From Oscillatoria sp. CS-180 (GTDB lineage Bacteria; Cyanobacteriota; Cyanobacteriia; Phormidesmidales; Phormidesmidaceae), in the NCBI RefSeq assembly GCF_028330965.1, contig NZ_JAQMUB010000062.1:1-59975 (forward strand): a DNA stretch of 59,975 nucleotides, written 5' to 3'. Shown in pieces: positions 4,973-59,938 of this stretch. The position numbers and the translations under genes are program-made. The notes under the pieces were generated by a model that was not told where the DNA came from, made no database searches, and saw only the letters and a program-made list of their open reading frames with translations. The number at the start of each line of letters is the position of its first letter. Position 1 is the stretch's first letter.

Positions 4973-5821
4973 ATGACAGCGGTCAGCGAACAGGACTTGC
5001 AACGTTATCTCGAAATCGCAACCGAGGCAGCCCTGGCTGGCGGTGGCGTCTTGCAGTCCTACTGGGGAAAGTTAGAAAACATTGAGCAGAAGGGGCGTCC
5101 AGGTGATCTTGTTACCGAGGCAGACAAAGCTGCCGAAGCCGCTGTGTTGGACGTCATTAGACGTCATCTCAGCGATCATCCCATTTTGGCCGAGGAATCG
5201 GGAGCTATTGGAGAACTAGCCAACAGTCCATTTTTATGGGCGATCGATCCCCTAGATGGCACCACCAACTACACCCATCAATATCCGTTTTCAGCCGTTT
5301 CTGTGGGTTTGCTGATTGATGGCTATCCCAGAGTCGGTGCCATCTTCGATCCGTTTCATGAAGACCTATTCCGGGCCGCGCAAGGTCAGGGCGCAACCTT
5401 AAATCGCCAGTTTATTCAAGTTTCAAAAACCAGTAAGCTAGCAGACAGTCTATTAGTAACAGGATTTGCTTACGATCGCCGCGAACAGGTGGACAATAAC
5501 TATGCAGAGTTTTGTCATTTAACTCATCTGACCCAAGGCGTGCGACGAGGTGGAGCCGCATCTCTCGATTTAGCCTATGTTGCCTGCGGTCGCCTAGACG
5601 GTTATTGGGAACGGGGGCTATCGCCTTGGGATTTAGCTGCCGGGGTCGTCCTTGTAGAAGAAGCTGGTGGACAGGTTACCGCTTACGACGAAACGTCTTT
5701 TGACATTCAATCTGGGAGGATTTTGGCAACGAATGGTCGGATTCACACTATCCTTAGCCAAGTGCTACAACAAATAGAACCGCTGGCAAATTTCCAGCCG
5801 ATCGCGATCGCAGAGTCATAG
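4973..5821 (+). CDS. Inositol monophosphatase family phosphatase
   Basis: This 282-residue Mg2+-dependent phosphatase carries the family's three metal-binding blocks. These are the glutamate pair in ILAEES (residues 71-76), WAIDPLDGTTNYTH (residues 89-102), and the C-terminal SPWDLAAGVVLVEEAGG near residue 220. The usual substrate is inositol-1-phosphate or a related sugar phosphate; in cyanobacteria some members dephosphorylate histidinol phosphate or fructose-1,6-bisphosphate. A histidine role is tempting because hisZ is 1.1 kb downstream, but that is inference. Length is normal, with no signal peptide. Confidence 0.88.
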   Translation: MTAVSEQDLQRYLEIATEAALAGGGVLQSYWGKLENIEQKGRPGDLVTEADKAAEAAVLDVIRRHLSDHPILAEESGAIGELANSPFLWAIDPLDGTTNYTHQYPFSAVSVGLLIDGYPRVGAIFDPFHEDLFRAAQGQGATLNRQFIQVSKTSKLADSLLVTGFAYDRREQVDNNYAEFCHLTHLTQGVRRGGAASLDLAYVACGRLDGYWERGLSPWDLAAGVVLVEEAGGQVTAYDETSFDIQSGRILATNGRIHTILSQVLQQIEPLANFQPIAIAES

Positions 5822-54746: not shown

Positions 54747-56684
54747 ATGACCCTTTTAACGTTAAAGTCTGTCAAAAAAGATTTCGGCATCAAAGAGATT
54801 TTGCGTGATGCCAGCTTTAGCTTGGACGAAGGGGACAAAGTCGGTTTGATTGGAACAAACGGCTCTGGTAAATCCACGCTGCTGAAAATGATTGCAGGAC
54901 TAGAGCCTATTGATGAAGGGGATATCTGGCGCAACTCGGGTGCGAAGATTGTCTACCTGCCTCAACAGCCTGACATTGAGGGCGATCGCACCGTTTTAGA
55001 ACAAGTTTTTGCCGATGCGGGTGAACAGATGGCGCTCATCCGCGAGTACGAAGATATTTCTCACCAGATGGAACAGGGACAGGGAGACATGGATGCCTTG
55101 ATGTCTCAGCTTTCACGGGTGACAGAACAAATCGAAGCGTTAGGGGCTTGGGATCTTGAAACTAGCGCTAAGGTGATTCTCAGCAAGCTAGGCATCAAAG
55201 ATTTCGATGCTCGTGTAGGCGATTTGTCAGGCGGTTACCGAAAGCGGATTGCCATTGCGGCGGCTTTGCTCTCCAGTCCAGACGCGCTGTTGATGGACGA
55301 GCCGACGAACCACTTGGATGCCGAATCGGTGGAATGGCTCCAGAGTTATTTGAATGGGTTTCGGGGTGCCCTATTGCTGATTACCCACGATCGCTACTTT
55401 TTGGATCAGGTGACCAATCGTATTCTGGAAGTGGATCGGGGCGATTTGTATGGCTATTCCGGCAACTACAGCTACTACTTGGAGAAAAAGGCTGAGGCTG
55501 AAACCTCTGAAGTGAGCACGCGGAAAAAGCACGCAGGGGTTTTGCGACGAGAGTTGGAATGGCTCAAGCGAGGTCCCAAAGCCCGCAGCACGAAACAGAA
55601 AGCTCGGATTCAGCGCATTGATGAGATGCAGAACCGAGACTTCAAGGAGTCCTTGGGCAAAGTTGATATTTCCACTGCTGGACGACGCATTGGGAAAAAA
55701 GTTATTGAGATTGAGGACGTCACGAAGGGATACGGCGATCGCACCCTAATTCAGGATTTCACTTATACGTTTGATCCCACTGATCGGGTTGGCATTATCG
55801 GCCCAAACGGTGTCGGCAAATCTACCCTGATGAACCTCATCACCGGACGGGAACAGCCAGACACCGGCAAAATTGATATCGGCGATACCATTCACTTCGG
55901 GTATTTCGACCAGCATTCTGAGGACGTCATCAAGAATCCGAACCAGCGGGTCATTGATTACCTCAAAGAAACGGCAGAACTCGTCAAGACTGCTGATGGC
56001 AGCGTCATCACAGCATCTCAGATGTTGGAGCGATTTCTCTTTCCGCCCAATCAGCAATATGCCCCAATTCAAAAGCTGTCTGGGGGAGAACGGCGACGGC
56101 TCTTTCTGCTGCAGGTATTGATGCAGGCTCCCAATGTTTTGATCTTGGACGAACCGACCAATGATCTAGACGTGCAGACCCTGGCGATTTTGGAGGAGTA
56201 CCTGGAAGAGTTCAATGGTTGTGTGATTGTGGTGTCTCACGATCGCTACTTTTTGGACCGAACCATTGATCGAGTGTTTGCCTTCGAAGGAGCCGGACAC
56301 ATTCGTCAATATCCCGGCAATTATTCGGTCTATGCAGATTATCGCCAAGAGCGGGAAGCTGAACAGAAGTTGGAGGACCGTAATCCAAAGTCGGAGAGTC
56401 GCGATCGTCCAGCAGACAAGGCCGATGAAGAACACCCTTCTCCCTCTGCAACAAAACCATCCTTTAAAAAGCTGTCTTATAAAGAGAAGCGGGAGTATGA
56501 GCGGCTTGAATCGGAGATTCCCGAGCTAGAAGCTGAAAAAGAAGACCTAGAGAAGACGCTTTATCAGGATGCTCCCAATGATTACAGTGAAATGCAAAAG
56601 CTATCGGAGCGGTTGGCAGAACTGACAGGGGCGATCGATCAGGCCACAGAACGCTGGATGGAATTAGCAGAACGAGCCGAGTAG
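54747..56684 (+). CDS. ABC-F family ATPase (Uup-like)
   Basis: This 645-residue soluble protein has two ABC cassettes joined by a charged linker and no membrane span. Cassette 1 has GTNGSGKSTLLK, signature LSGGYRKR and LLMDEPTNHLDAES. Cassette 2 has GPNGVGKSTLMN, signature LSGGERRR and LILDEPTNDLDVQ. The C-terminal ~80 residues form a coiled coil (LEAEKEDLEKTL), as in Uup. ABC-F proteins act on ribosomes or nucleic acids rather than in transport. The stop is followed within one base by the A-rich side of a minus-strand terminator. Confidence 0.93.
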   Translation: MTLLTLKSVKKDFGIKEILRDASFSLDEGDKVGLIGTNGSGKSTLLKMIAGLEPIDEGDIWRNSGAKIVYLPQQPDIEGDRTVLEQVFADAGEQMALIREYEDISHQMEQGQGDMDALMSQLSRVTEQIEALGAWDLETSAKVILSKLGIKDFDARVGDLSGGYRKRIAIAAALLSSPDALLMDEPTNHLDAESVEWLQSYLNGFRGALLLITHDRYFLDQVTNRILEVDRGDLYGYSGNYSYYLEKKAEAETSEVSTRKKHAGVLRRELEWLKRGPKARSTKQKARIQRIDEMQNRDFKESLGKVDISTAGRRIGKKVIEIEDVTKGYGDRTLIQDFTYTFDPTDRVGIIGPNGVGKSTLMNLITGREQPDTGKIDIGDTIHFGYFDQHSEDVIKNPNQRVIDYLKETAELVKTADGSVITASQMLERFLFPPNQQYAPIQKLSGGERRRLFLLQVLMQAPNVLILDEPTNDLDVQTLAILEEYLEEFNGCVIVVSHDRYFLDRTIDRVFAFEGAGHIRQYPGNYSVYADYRQEREAEQKLEDRNPKSESRDRPADKADEEHPSPSATKPSFKKLSYKEKREYERLESEIPELEAEKEDLEKTLYQDAPNDYSEMQKLSERLAELTGAIDQATERWMELAERAE

Positions 56685-56870
56685 CAAAAAAATCCCGCAG
56701 CCAAGGCTACGGGATTTGGAATCAGGGTGCATCTACCATTCCAATAACCAGGCGATCGTCCCCTATACCCGGAAAAGAGGGGTGAGTTCATCGATATTTC
56801 ATACCCAAAAAGGAAGTCAATGGGCTGGAACCGTTGAGAACGCCAGAATGCCCACTGTGCAGAGAGTGGA
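56685..56870 (-). ncRNA. Candidate small RNA unit D1 (first of two tandem copies)
   Basis: A ~180-bp unit is repeated at 57215-57392 with about 75% identity. Read on the minus strand, each unit ends with hairpin TTGGAAT...ATTCCAA and then a terminator. The terminator here is ATCCCGTAGCC with GGCTGCGGGAT, followed by seven T (56717 down to 56686). The strongest shared blocks are GGGTATAGGG, TGGTAGATGCACCCTGATTC and CATTCTGGC. No protein frame is conserved between copies. Conserved body plus conserved terminator indicates a short transcript. I do not recognise the RNA. A TATTAA-type -10 lies near 56875. Confidence 0.6.
56686..56717 (-). terminator. Intrinsic terminator of candidate RNA D1
   Basis: On the minus strand, AAATCCCGTAGCC pairs with GGCTGCGGGATTT across TT, followed by a T-run. 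It abuts the ABC-F stop (56684), so it may also serve that convergent gene weakly. Confidence 0.85.
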
Positions 56871-56906
56871 TTTAATACACTCTGCTTTCATCTTTTTATG
56901 AGGTAT

Positions 56907-56975
56907 GCAGTCGCCAGTCCTGTTGAGATAAGACGGCGAGTCAGCTGGCAACGCGCTAAGCACCTAGTACACGAC
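56907..56975 (-). repeat. 97-bp two-hairpin element, copy 5 (3' part, far from the exosortase locus)
   Basis: Read on the minus strand it carries TAGGTGCTTAGCGCGTTGCC, GACTCGCCGTCTTATC and CAGGACTGGCGACTGC. These align with the 3' two-thirds of the copies at 28981-35599, including the GCCGTC/GAC.GC hairpin arms. The expected 5' part (GCTTTAGCCATT) is not adjacent but appears at 57188-57201 on the same strand, with repeats B and C between. Confidence 0.6.
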
Positions 56976-57080
56976 GGCTTCAAAACTCTGGGAAAGTGTA
57001 TCCGCCTTAGTTGTGTAGAGCTTTGCTCTTCTCGCAGAGTATTCTGAATTTTGCATTTTGAATTCCGCGCAGCAATACTA
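56971..57080 (+). repeat. Dispersed intergenic repeat, family B copy 4
   Basis: It contains ACGGCTTCAAAACTCTGGGA, GAGCTTTGCTCTTCTCG, TTTTGCATTTTGAATTCCGC and AGCAATACTA, in the order shared with copies at 57686 and 57960. It is partly fused with copy 5 of the two-hairpin element. Confidence 0.65.
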
Positions 57081-57104
57081 GATGCTATTGGGTGAGCTAG
57101 GTTC

Positions 57105-57180
57105 TGAAAATAAAAAACGGCTGTGGTGCATTACGCCGTGCTAGTGACACCCTACCAGCGGTAAATGCTTTCCTGGAAAT
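57105..57180 (+). repeat. Dispersed intergenic repeat, family C copy 2
   Basis: It contains GAAAATAAAAAACGGCTGTG and GACACCCTACCAGCGGTAAA, then TTTCCTGG, parallel to 20535-20611. Confidence 0.7.
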
Positions 57181-57214
57181 CTCCTAAATGGCTAAAGCCA
57201 TAAATCAGTTTTGA

Positions 57215-57248
57215 TAAAAAAAATCCCGTAGCCGGGGCCACGGGATTT
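57215..57248 (-). terminator. Intrinsic terminator of candidate RNA D2
   Basis: A GC-rich stem of about 12 bp with a short CCCC-type loop is followed by eight T residues on the minus strand. It is one of the clearest intrinsic terminators in the window, yet no protein gene ends in front of it. Confidence 0.88.
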
Positions 57249-57392
57249 GGAATCAGGGTGCATCTACCATTCCAATAACCAGACGGTGATGCCCTATACC
57301 CGGAAAAGAGGGACGAGTTTATCGATATTTCATACCGAATGCCTTGGAGTCAATGGCGTGGACCTATCGAGAATGCCAGAATTCCACTCAGC
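57215..57392 (-). ncRNA. Candidate small RNA unit D2 (second tandem copy)
   Basis: This is homologous to D1 over its full length, 530 bp further right. The minus-strand terminator is a 13-bp stem, AAATCCCGTGGCC with GGCTACGGGATTT, followed by T8 (57248 down to 57215). Arm differences from D1 are compensated (GTAGCC/GGCTGC in D1, GTGGCC/GGCTAC in D2), so the fold is kept. The shared interior hairpin TTGGAATGG...CTGATTCCAA precedes the terminator. It lies in a gene-free stretch. Confidence 0.6.
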
Positions 57393-57685
57393 AGATCAAT
57401 AACATTGATGGAAGAACAGCTGAAACACTTGATAGTGCTGTGGCAATGTCAAGCAGCAATGGGTAAGCTCTCCGGCTCCAGTAAATTCCAGAAATCTCGA
57501 AAATGAACCTTTCTGGGAACATGAGGGTTATTTTTTCTTCATAGGAGAAGGGTGTTTGCCACTCGCTACCTACAGGTCTTGTCCCCAACATTAAAAATTA
57601 TCGAGACAGTCAAATCACTCAGGACTAACAAATCATTCTGGGTTGCTCAATCATTTATTGACCAACGCTGAAGCAATCTAGCGCG

Positions 57686-57832
57686 CTACGGCAGCAATAG
57701 GCTCACCCTTCAAAACCCTGAGGAAGCTTATCCCCCTTAGTTTTGAATTTTGTAGAGCTTCGCTCTTCTCGTTTGCCTTTGGCGTTCTCGAAGAGAAGAG
57801 TATTTTGCATTTTGAATTCCACGTAGCGGTAC
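57686..57832 (+). repeat. Dispersed intergenic repeat, family B copy 2
   Basis: It runs from CTACGGCAGCAATAGGCTCA to ACGTAGCGGTAC, with an internal expansion made of GAGCTTCGCTCTTCTCG and its partial inverse CGAAGAGAAGAG, absent from copy 3. Non-coding. Confidence 0.7.
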
Positions 57833-57959
57833 GGGTCTTTAGAAACTCAATTTTAGGCGGTTGATTGAATCCCCCCGTTGTCGCCGTCGCCCTTGAAAAG
57901 GGGCTGTTTATCACCTGGTTTAGACTGTCCCGTTTTGCCAGAGGCCTGAAGCTATTACT

Positions 57960-58060
57960 CTACGGCAGAAATAGGCTCACCCTTCAAAATACTGGGAAAG
58001 CTTATCTGCCTTAATTTTGAATTCTAAATTTTGCATTTTGAATTCCGCGTAGCGGTACTA
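57960..58060 (+). repeat. Dispersed intergenic repeat, family B copy 3
   Basis: It begins TACGGCAGAAATAGGCTCAC, continues CTGGGAAAGCTTATCTGCC and ends GCGTAGCGGTACTAG. It is the closest relative of the copy at 18071-18171, 40 kb away, and lies just upstream of the GH9 gene. Confidence 0.75.
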
Positions 58061-58129
58061 GCTAGCTGAAGCCTCACATCTTGGAATCTGGGCATCACTG
58101 GTAATGCAATATTCCGGAAAAAGATCTCT

Positions 58130-59938
58130 ATGTACACAGTTGACTTTGTCGTGAATAGCGACTGGGGAGTTGGGTTTACTGCCCAAATCATCATTACCAA
58201 CACGGGTACTGAATCCTTGGATTGGTCGCAGCTCTCTTTCGATGCACCTTTCACGATCGCGAATCTTTGGGGAGGGCGCATCCAGAGTGATGACGGCGAT
58301 CGCTACGTCATTGATAGCAAGTCATGGAATGATACTCTGGCTCCCGGCGGTCAAATTTCAGTCGGCTTCAGTGGCCACAAGGAACCGGGGACCATTCCCG
58401 AGGTGAACAATCTTAGGGTCGATGGCCTCGGGGCAGTTGACCCGCTACCAACGCCCCAACCTGATCCTGAGCCAACGCCTGATCCAATCCCCGACCCAGT
58501 GCCTGACCCCGACCCAATTCCAGAGCCAGAACCAACCCCTGATCCTGACATCAGCACTCCGTCTACGGGGCAATTCAACTATGCTGAAGCGCTGCAAAAA
58601 TCCTTTCTGTTCTACGAGGCGCAGCGATCGGGACCATTACCTGACGATAATCGCATCGAATGGCGAGGCGATTCGGCTGTTGATGACGGGGCAGACGTGG
58701 GCAGAGACCTGTCTGGTGGCTACTATGATGCAGGCGACCACGTGAAGTTTGGCTTCCCGATGGCCGCTTCGATGACAATGCTGAGCTGGGGCGTCGAGGA
58801 ATATGGCGACGCTTATCAGCAAATCGGGCAGCTCGATGAAGCCCTGAATGCCATCAAATGGGGCACGGACTATATGCTCAAGGCCCATGTCACTGATGGC
58901 AACGGCACCCAAGAATTCTGGGGACAGGTAGGCGACGGCCACGTTGACCACAGCTTCTGGGGCGCTCCTGAAGCAATGACCATGCAGCGTCCATCCTTCA
59001 AGATCGATCGCCAAAATCCGGGTACGGATCTTGCCGCAGAGACCGCTGCCTCGCTGGCCGCTGCGTCAATTGTCTTCCGCCCCTTTGACGAAGCTTATGC
59101 CGACGAGCTGTTGACAAACGCTGAGCAGCTATTCGACTTTGCCGATACCTATCGAGGCAAGTACTCCGACGCAATCCCCAACGCTCAGAGTTTCTACAAT
59201 TCCTGGAGCGGCTATCACGATGAGCTAGCCTGGGGAGCAGCTTGGCTTTATAAGGCAACGGGAGAAGCGTCTTACTTACAGCAAGCGGAATCGATTTACC
59301 AAAATCAAATCGGCGGCCTTACCAACGGCTGGACCCAAAACTGGGATAACAAGTCTTACGGGGTGGCAACACTACTAGCCCAGGAAACTGGTAATCAACG
59401 CTACCAACAGGATGTTGAAGGCTGGTTGAATGCATGGGTGAATGGTACTGATGGTGTGCAAATTACGGATGGAGGGCTGCGCTGGATCGACCAGTGGGGT
59501 TCCAATCGCCTTGCTGCTAATACAGCTTTTGTAGCCGGCGTTTATGCGGACACTGTTGGAGATCCGACAGGACAGTACGATGCTCTGGCCGAGACGACCA
59601 TTGACTATTTATTGGGTGATAATCCCCGCAATGCCAGCTACGTAGTGGGCTTCGGCGAAAACCCGCCTCAGCAGCCTCACCATCGCGCGGCAGGCAGCGA
59701 TCTCAATAGCTCCAATCCTAACGAGCACATTTTGTATGGGGCCTTGGTGGGTGGCCCGGACCAGCCCAACGACTTCGCCTATGACGATAGTCGCGACAAC
59801 TACATCACCAATGAAGTCGCCCTCGACTATAATGCGGGCTTCACCGGAGCTTTGGCTCGTAGGGTGGACGACTTTAGCGGTGATCCTCTAAGTAACGAGG
59901 AGATAAACGCGCTGCCGGGTATTGTGGTGGCTGAATAG
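58130..59938 (+). CDS. Glycoside hydrolase family 9 cellulase with N-terminal CBM2-like module
   Basis: This 602-residue protein has three parts. Residues 1-101 are a CBM2-like cellulose-binding beta-sandwich (WGVGFTAQIIITNTGTESLD, then LAPGGQISVGFSG). Residues ~103-142 are a Pro/Asp/Glu linker. From ~145 a GH9 (alpha/alpha)6 barrel carries GGYYDAGDHVKFGFP (catalytic base Asp), PHHRAAGS, and NEVALDYNAGFTGAL (acid Glu). It should cut beta-1,4-glucan. No signal peptide is present: the ATG at 58130 opens directly inside the CBM, and upstream in frame there is no other start before a TGA near 58066. Export by another route, or an intact fold without its leader, must be considered. Confidence 0.92.
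   Translation: MYTVDFVVNSDWGVGFTAQIIITNTGTESLDWSQLSFDAPFTIANLWGGRIQSDDGDRYVIDSKSWNDTLAPGGQISVGFSGHKEPGTIPEVNNLRVDGLGAVDPLPTPQPDPEPTPDPIPDPVPDPDPIPEPEPTPDPDISTPSTGQFNYAEALQKSFLFYEAQRSGPLPDDNRIEWRGDSAVDDGADVGRDLSGGYYDAGDHVKFGFPMAASMTMLSWGVEEYGDAYQQIGQLDEALNAIKWGTDYMLKAHVTDGNGTQEFWGQVGDGHVDHSFWGAPEAMTMQRPSFKIDRQNPGTDLAAETAASLAAASIVFRPFDEAYADELLTNAEQLFDFADTYRGKYSDAIPNAQSFYNSWSGYHDELAWGAAWLYKATGEASYLQQAESIYQNQIGGLTNGWTQNWDNKSYGVATLLAQETGNQRYQQDVEGWLNAWVNGTDGVQITDGGLRWIDQWGSNRLAANTAFVAGVYADTVGDPTGQYDALAETTIDYLLGDNPRNASYVVGFGENPPQQPHHRAAGSDLNSSNPNEHILYGALVGGPDQPNDFAYDDSRDNYITNEVALDYNAGFTGALARRVDDFSGDPLSNEEINALPGIVVAE

Follow-up and report, generated by a model that had tools for sequence, protein, structure and literature searches.

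What do two adjacent, homologous units of ~180 bp, D1 (56685-56870) and D2 (57215-57392), encode in the 59,975-nucleotide stretch of Oscillatoria sp. CS-180 DNA analysed here (the window), and what would their product do in this cyanobacterium? The original prediction, made from the sequence alone, proposed duplicated small RNAs that could not be matched to NsiR-type RNAs. Duplicated small RNAs they appear to be, with homologous units and both copies above Rfam's NsiR1 threshold, which also means that the failure to match them to NsiR-type RNAs was an error.

D1 and D2 match the NsiR1 family

Searched against Rfam 15, the whole window returned four matches at or above threshold, namely two tRNAs and two NsiR1 RNAs (RF02399). 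Against a threshold of 39 bits, D1 scored 57.3 bits (56686-56738) and D2 55.9 bits (57217-57269), both on the minus strand and both spanning positions 1-60 of the 60-position model. Since these matches exceed the curated RF02399 threshold, D1 and D2 are, judged by sequence, almost certainly NsiR1 small-RNA genes. An Rfam match had been named beforehand as the outcome that would speak against a new RNA, and a known one, NsiR1, was found: D1 and D2 are additional members of an already known RNA family, in an unusual setting.

The traits by which NsiR1 is recognised are present as well. For a length of ~60 nt with a terminator hairpin, we predict 53 nt with a 12-bp stem and a T-run; for several copies per genome, six lie above threshold in the host genome (G000); and for an own DIF1 promoter, D1 and D2 both carry TCCGGG at -36 to -31, with one mismatch.

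Anatomy of the duplicated units

The pair is a local duplication of the whole unit, including upstream DNA, DIF1-type promoter, RNA and terminator. Homology over nearly the full length, as originally described, was confirmed by 142 identical columns among 175 aligned (14 gap columns) and by a blastn search of D1 against the whole window, which recovered D2 at E = 7.5e-48; an ungapped block of 123 bases is 89% identical. The two RNA genes are 531 bp apart. Read on the minus strand, each unit leads from ~90-100 bp of common upstream DNA to TCCGGG, a -10 region ending in TTATTGGAAT, the RNA (UGGUAGAUGCACCCUGAUUCCAAAUCCCG...), a 12-bp stem and a run of 7 or 8 T. The features are listed below, with the first G of GGTAGATG taken as +1 for promoter positions.

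56686-56738, minus strand: D1 NsiR1 RNA gene, predicted 53 nt, 5′ end at 56738 (full-length RF02399 match; also genome-wide search)
56686-56717, minus strand: D1 terminator, 12-bp hairpin and 7 T (sequence, fold)
56721-56735, minus strand: D1 conserved core TAGATGCACCCTGAT, proposed pairing region (seven exact copies in the genome)
56739-56773, minus strand: D1 promoter, DIF1-type TCCGGG at 56773-56768 (sequence; same place in 44/44 non-f7 copies, see below)
56774-56870, minus strand: D1 upstream DNA common with D2 (alignment)
57217-57269, minus strand: D2 NsiR1 RNA gene, predicted 53 nt, 5′ end at 57269 (full-length RF02399 match)
57216-57248, minus strand: D2 terminator, 12-bp hairpin and 8 T (sequence, fold)
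57252-57266, minus strand: D2 conserved core TAGATGCACCCTGAT (exact copies in the genome)
57270-57304, minus strand: D2 promoter, DIF1-type TCCGGG at 57304-57299 (sequence; 44/44 non-f7 copies)
57305-57395, minus strand: D2 upstream DNA common with D1 (alignment, blastn end)

The RNA is likely ~53 nt long, the remainder of the ~180-bp unit being promoter and upstream DNA, and it would be expected to begin at the U of UGGUAGAUG. The transcripts of 150-190 nt foreseen earlier thus find no support, the unit length having been mistaken for the transcript length. The minus-strand terminators are as described, a 12-bp hairpin followed by 7 T in D1 and 8 T in D2, and their arms do differ yet pair, the differences being kept as wobble pairs, one side at a time. 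In the other NsiR1 copies of the host genome, the stems diverge much more and pairing is still kept. The whole 53-mers fold at -20.0 (D1) and -19.7 kcal/mol (D2), and 1 and 3 of 200 shuffles, respectively, fold equally well. Upstream of either terminator, the minus strand holds no long reading frame, solely frames <90 aa, in agreement with the statement that no protein gene lies there. A second hairpin proposed ahead of each terminator stands in part: its arms, TTGGAAT and ATTCCAA, are present, but the 5′ arm lies upstream of the Rfam 5′ end, within the promoter. This arm pair is not retained in the other four host copies (contigs C87, C30, C57 and C85); the 60-mers that include it fold at -25.0 (D1) and -24.7 kcal/mol (D2), which would be strong if transcribed.

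Three related non-coding repeats surround D2 (56945-57081, 57675-57835 and 57949-58061); they are built of 75-nt and 41-nt blocks, contain ATTTTGCATTTTGAATTCCGCG and have the appearance of dispersed repeats. They are adjoined by a gene for a cellulase-type GH9 glycosidase with a CBM2 domain (58130-59938).

NsiR1 copies and their promoters

In the host genome (6.5 Mb, 102 contigs), the six NsiR1 genes above threshold are D1, D2 and single copies on C87, C30, C85 and C57. The exact core TAGATGCACCCTGAT occurs in these six genes and at one place on C9 (24.6 bits), and a core with one mismatch on C21. Comparison of flanking proteins by eye identified counterparts of the C87, C30 and C57 copies in G170, a genome of the same genus, and of the C30 copy also in G215, of the same family, where it adjoins a D-Ala-D-Ala ligase gene. 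For D1/D2 and C85, the four above-threshold copies read per genome in G170 and G215 included no flank counterpart. D1, D2 and C85 have TCCGGGTA, TTGGTTATTG and GATTCCAAA in common and look like one subgroup. Short arrays were also seen in G360, a genome outside the GTDB family Nostocaceae (f7), which holds 45 NsiR1 matches at E up to 0.5, with several such arrays on different contigs.

DIF1 is described in PMC6133370 as TCCGGA near -35, one mismatch being tolerated in the promoter set published there. At Anabaena DIF1 promoters, HetR acts through HetZ according to published work; that DIF1 functions at the nsiR promoter is cited in the published DIF1 work. All 44 copies that we compared outside f7 carry a DIF1-like motif at a fixed place, 29 of them as exact TCCGGA; counted by window, -36 gives 42 and twelve other windows give 0 to 5. 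A larger set comprised 232 distinct core copies with at most two mismatches, mostly from f7, from which four without a T-run were dropped. A DIF1-like motif (at most one mismatch) starts at -37 to -34 in 212 of the remaining 228. The other 16, by reading, are six misfiled copies of the class B described below, three places in hetF regions that are not RNA genes, the C21 place, and six f7 copies in which the motif is missing or displaced. No perfect GGGGTNNNACCCC HetR site was found in the D1 and D2 promoters; the genome has just two perfect sites, neither on contig C2.

Within the host, TCCGGA is exact in the C87, C30 and C57 copies, whereas D1, D2 and C85 carry TCCGGG, one base off. This difference could mean that D1 and D2 are silent or decaying copies and that NsiR1 is made from the C87, C30 and C57 genes, and the flanks point the same way, with these three matched in G170 and the pair unmatched among the copies read. 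However, neither D1 nor D2 has lost the core, the promoter spacing or the pairing of the terminator, and TCCGGG is also present in copies from other genomes, so that we consider decay unlikely. Considerably less probable is a main role of the hairpins as terminators or as structural elements in neighbour genes, instead of as small-RNA ends. D1 does begin two bases past the stop of the convergent ABC-F gene (54747-56684), but only the minus strand has a T-run, there is no gene that D2 could serve, and many families show conservation of a promoter and core. The earlier statement that the units carry no conserved reading frame does not hold literally, as D1 and D2 share a plus-strand frame, LESGCIYHSNNQ..., which starts with TTG and runs for 61 and 51 aa, respectively. 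Its common part, however, is the conserved RNA and promoter read on the opposite strand, and the tails are different, leaving a small protein with next to no probability. Duplicated NsiR1 genes are therefore retained as the preferred reading.

NsiR1 and HetR occur together

NsiR1 (matches above the RF02399 threshold) and HetR (PF03574) were surveyed in 386 genomes from the phylum. Each was found in 80 genomes and both in 78, an almost one-to-one co-occurrence whose exceptions are G229 and G308 (NsiR1 without HetR) and G058 and G083 (HetR without NsiR1). The 200 genomes from other classes of the phylum have neither; the host's own class, with 186 genomes, includes the 78 with both, the exceptions (2 and 2) and 104 with neither. 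Family f7, the GTDB family in which heterocyst formers are placed, accounts for 42 of the 78. Once f7 is removed, the class still has 36 genomes with both, 2 and 2 exceptions and 104 with neither. The Fisher p values for this association ignore kinship and so are not probabilities. Weaker NsiR1 matches alone were obtained in 15 further genomes, nine of which carry the class B pattern.

What makes the finding interesting is the link between HetR and NsiR1 beyond heterocyst formers. In the literature searched, we found no survey of NsiR1 and HetR outside heterocyst formers, although Ionescu 2010 and Elhai and Khudyakov 2018 may hold parts of one, and a figure in PMC4734099 that maps Nostoc RNAs over 89 genomes may show NsiR1 outside heterocystous strains. 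A literature search with the core letters TAGATGCACCC gave nothing relevant by title among the papers listed.

A second RNA class with the same core

The core copy on C9 (28040-28093; locus L083, core at 5043, plus strand) lies beside gatB, shares GTAGATGCACCCTGATG, ends in GGGAGAG...CTCTCC and is devoid of DIF1. With its score below the threshold of 39, it was not filed as NsiR1; from its sequence features, it apparently belongs to a second RNA class (class B) that is HetR-linked and has no Rfam family of its own. The best class B score against RF02399 was 33.6, below 39, and a search with five loci returned no match to any other Rfam family at E ≤ 1. A class B pattern was detected in 66 of the 386 genomes, with zero matches for the backward control. 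In G207 and G298 the matches are DIF1 copies, which leaves 64 class B genomes, 55 with HetR and 9 without. The inner stem pairs vary with pairing kept. A gatB match lies ~70-730 bases away in 48/74 class B loci, and several of the remaining loci have short flanks; gatB is absent beside Planktothrix-type loci and the HetR-less f6/g30 loci, where the flanks are full. No report of class B RNA was found in the literature searched.

According to PMC4192349, HetR binds GAGGGGTCTAACCCCTC in the hetP promoter, the core need being GGGnnnnnCCC. Upstream of class B, nearly always at -40, GGGGTNNNACCCC is present with 0 or 1 mismatch in 53 of the 66 distinct copies, none being expected from shuffles. The C9 copy, at which one of the two perfect GGGGTNNNACCCC places of the host genome is located, has GGGGTTTCACCCC at -40, a putative site that by sequence match contains the published core. 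The other perfect place (C85:134834) was rejected as a class B site: it sits in a longer palindrome and has no class B core. A comparison of the core covering 31 of the 64 class B genomes found GGGN5CCC exactly at -39 in 20/22 genomes with HetR, the other two, G101 and G382, differing by one base, and in 1/9 without HetR, the latter representing few independent cases since seven of the nine belong to one genus. The exception among the HetR-less genomes is G229, in which HetR may have been missed, because this genome keeps NsiR1 and a HetF relative.

Nitrogen fixation and heterocyst genes of the host

The host GatB shares 91.1% identity with its counterpart in Halomicronema sp. CCY15110 and 90.9% with the one in an uncultured Halomicronema, as against 70-75% for three f7 sequences. 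Its nifH scored 465 bits, above the cut-off. Like G170, the host has two HetR genes (C92:10457-10903 and C59:77251-77697), and it carries a HetF relative. Among five genomes, a HetP-family match was found in none of the three from the host's family (the host and two members) versus both from f7. PatD (NF037954) was rejected as a heterocyst marker, being above cut-off in 117/386 genomes of many families, including the control Synechococcus elongatus. A 25-base pattern from the C9 copy, which misfits the f7 variant and may omit the host and therefore adds little, returned 43 stretches in named genomes; to our knowledge, none of these stands under a heterocystous genus name. The host is thus probably a non-heterocystous nitrogen fixer, kinship being the basis for the non-heterocystous status and nifH that for fixation.

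hetF linkage and candidate targets

Nostoc NsiR1 is described in PMC9045159 as HetR-dependent and as repressing hetF and alr3234; there, 12 tandem copies lie beside hetF and NsiR1.1 is antisense to the hetF 5′ UTR. With a HetF fragment from f7 as query, a relative was identified in all but one (G308) of 27 genomes. An antisense-oriented NsiR1 copy lies 0.2 to 1.5 kb upstream of the HetF match in nine of the 26, namely G382 (f7) and, outside f7, G360, G062, G027, G060, G008, G229, G135 and G033. As eight of these nine genomes are outside f7, the arrangement of putative NsiR1 genes upstream of hetF is not confined to the heterocyst family. The G135 copy is above threshold, though no T-run appears within the 60 bases printed; a tenth match, in G185, was weak, without DIF1 and without terminator, and was set aside. 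No NsiR1 copy was found within ~1.5 kb upstream of the host hetF (3.8-kb stretch L199) and, given that a HetP match was also not found, neither published target relation is seen in the host.

For a target scan, ATCAGGGTGC, a 10-mer complementary to the NsiR1 core, was used as the pattern and its reverse as the control. The pattern occurs at 28, 38 and 27 places in G000, G170 and G215, against 2, 1 and 0 for the control. By reading, 16 places (7, 5 and 4) are RNA genes themselves, leaving 77; 74 were read, with three omitted: a place at the end of a G170 contig, one on C39 of G215, and one member of a close pair on C5 of G170. The 74 comprise 51 that are antisense to a reading frame alone, 18 in or just before a sense frame and 5 that are neither. 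Because most places (51/74) lie antisense to frames, the excess looks like codon usage and was rejected as a target signal. In both G000 (C43:48385-48394) and G170 (C2:662870-662879), a cysteine-rich gene retains ATCAGGGTGC in its 5′ region, a weak lead and not target evidence.

A HetR-NsiR1 programme that may predate heterocysts

We place at roughly 70% the probability of the whole explanation, in which D1 and D2 are duplicated NsiR1 genes, switched by HetR/HetZ under nitrogen stress, whose ~53-nt RNA lowers target translation within a pre-heterocyst programme. By analogy with Anabaena, nitrogen stress would raise HetR, which through HetZ would switch on D1, D2 and the other copies, each from its own DIF1 promoter, and would act directly on class B. 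The GGUAGAUGCACCCUGAU region of the ~53-nt RNA would pair with target mRNAs near their start and lower their translation, and additional NsiR1 copies would raise the dose. Since NsiR1 and class B share one pairing region, they should share targets; as HetP-type targets were not found in the host, the targets would differ. In a host that probably fixes nitrogen without making heterocysts, the RNA would work within a HetR programme that arose before heterocysts did.

D1 and D2 resemble NsiR1 of Nostoc/Anabaena sp. PCC 7120 in their above-threshold model match, a DIF1-type promoter for each copy, the presence of several copies, some adjacent, and a Rho-independent terminator. Unlike the Nostoc array of 12, the host copies form one adjacent pair and four scattered genes, none was found beside hetF, and no HetP-family gene was found. 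RNA162 of Limnospira indica PCC 8005 is described in PMC8400943 as a 57-nt NsiR1-like RNA gene in a filament without heterocysts, with expression that changed after irradiation; unlike the probable nitrogen fixer considered here, Limnospira does not fix nitrogen. The PatX-HetR module is likewise HetR-linked, occurs in non-heterocystous filaments and was proposed to predate heterocysts (PMC12756182, PMC7761841), but PatX is a peptide inhibitor whereas the D1/D2 product would be an RNA. PMC11298460 calls it a mystery what hetR and patX do in filaments that lack heterocysts; deletions of both genes in Leptolyngbya BL0902 are published there, with RNA-seq counts confined to protein genes.

The evidence fits a HetR-NsiR1 circuit of ancestral origin that includes a second RNA with a HetR-type site, an idea absent from the literature searched. 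NsiR1 has been described in Nostoc from the cells that fix nitrogen; its presence in a host that is probably without heterocysts is a hint that both the RNA and its regulator arose before such cells. Going further, we lean, by a small measure, towards NsiR1 belonging to an ancestral, pre-heterocyst HetR programme of filamentous cyanobacteria, in which the DIF1 copies and class B, with its HetR-type site, would be two arms of one regulon with the same targets. In non-heterocystous filaments these would be targets other than HetP, perhaps concerned with filament breakage or cell fate under nitrogen stress, and heterocyst formers would later have taken both arms over. A HetR-tied small RNA in 36 non-Nostocaceae genomes would offer a direct readout of such a programme, as the ~53-nt RNA should drop in a Leptolyngbya hetR deletion; class B, if HetR binds its -40 site, would be both a direct HetR target and a marker for the circuit's time of origin.
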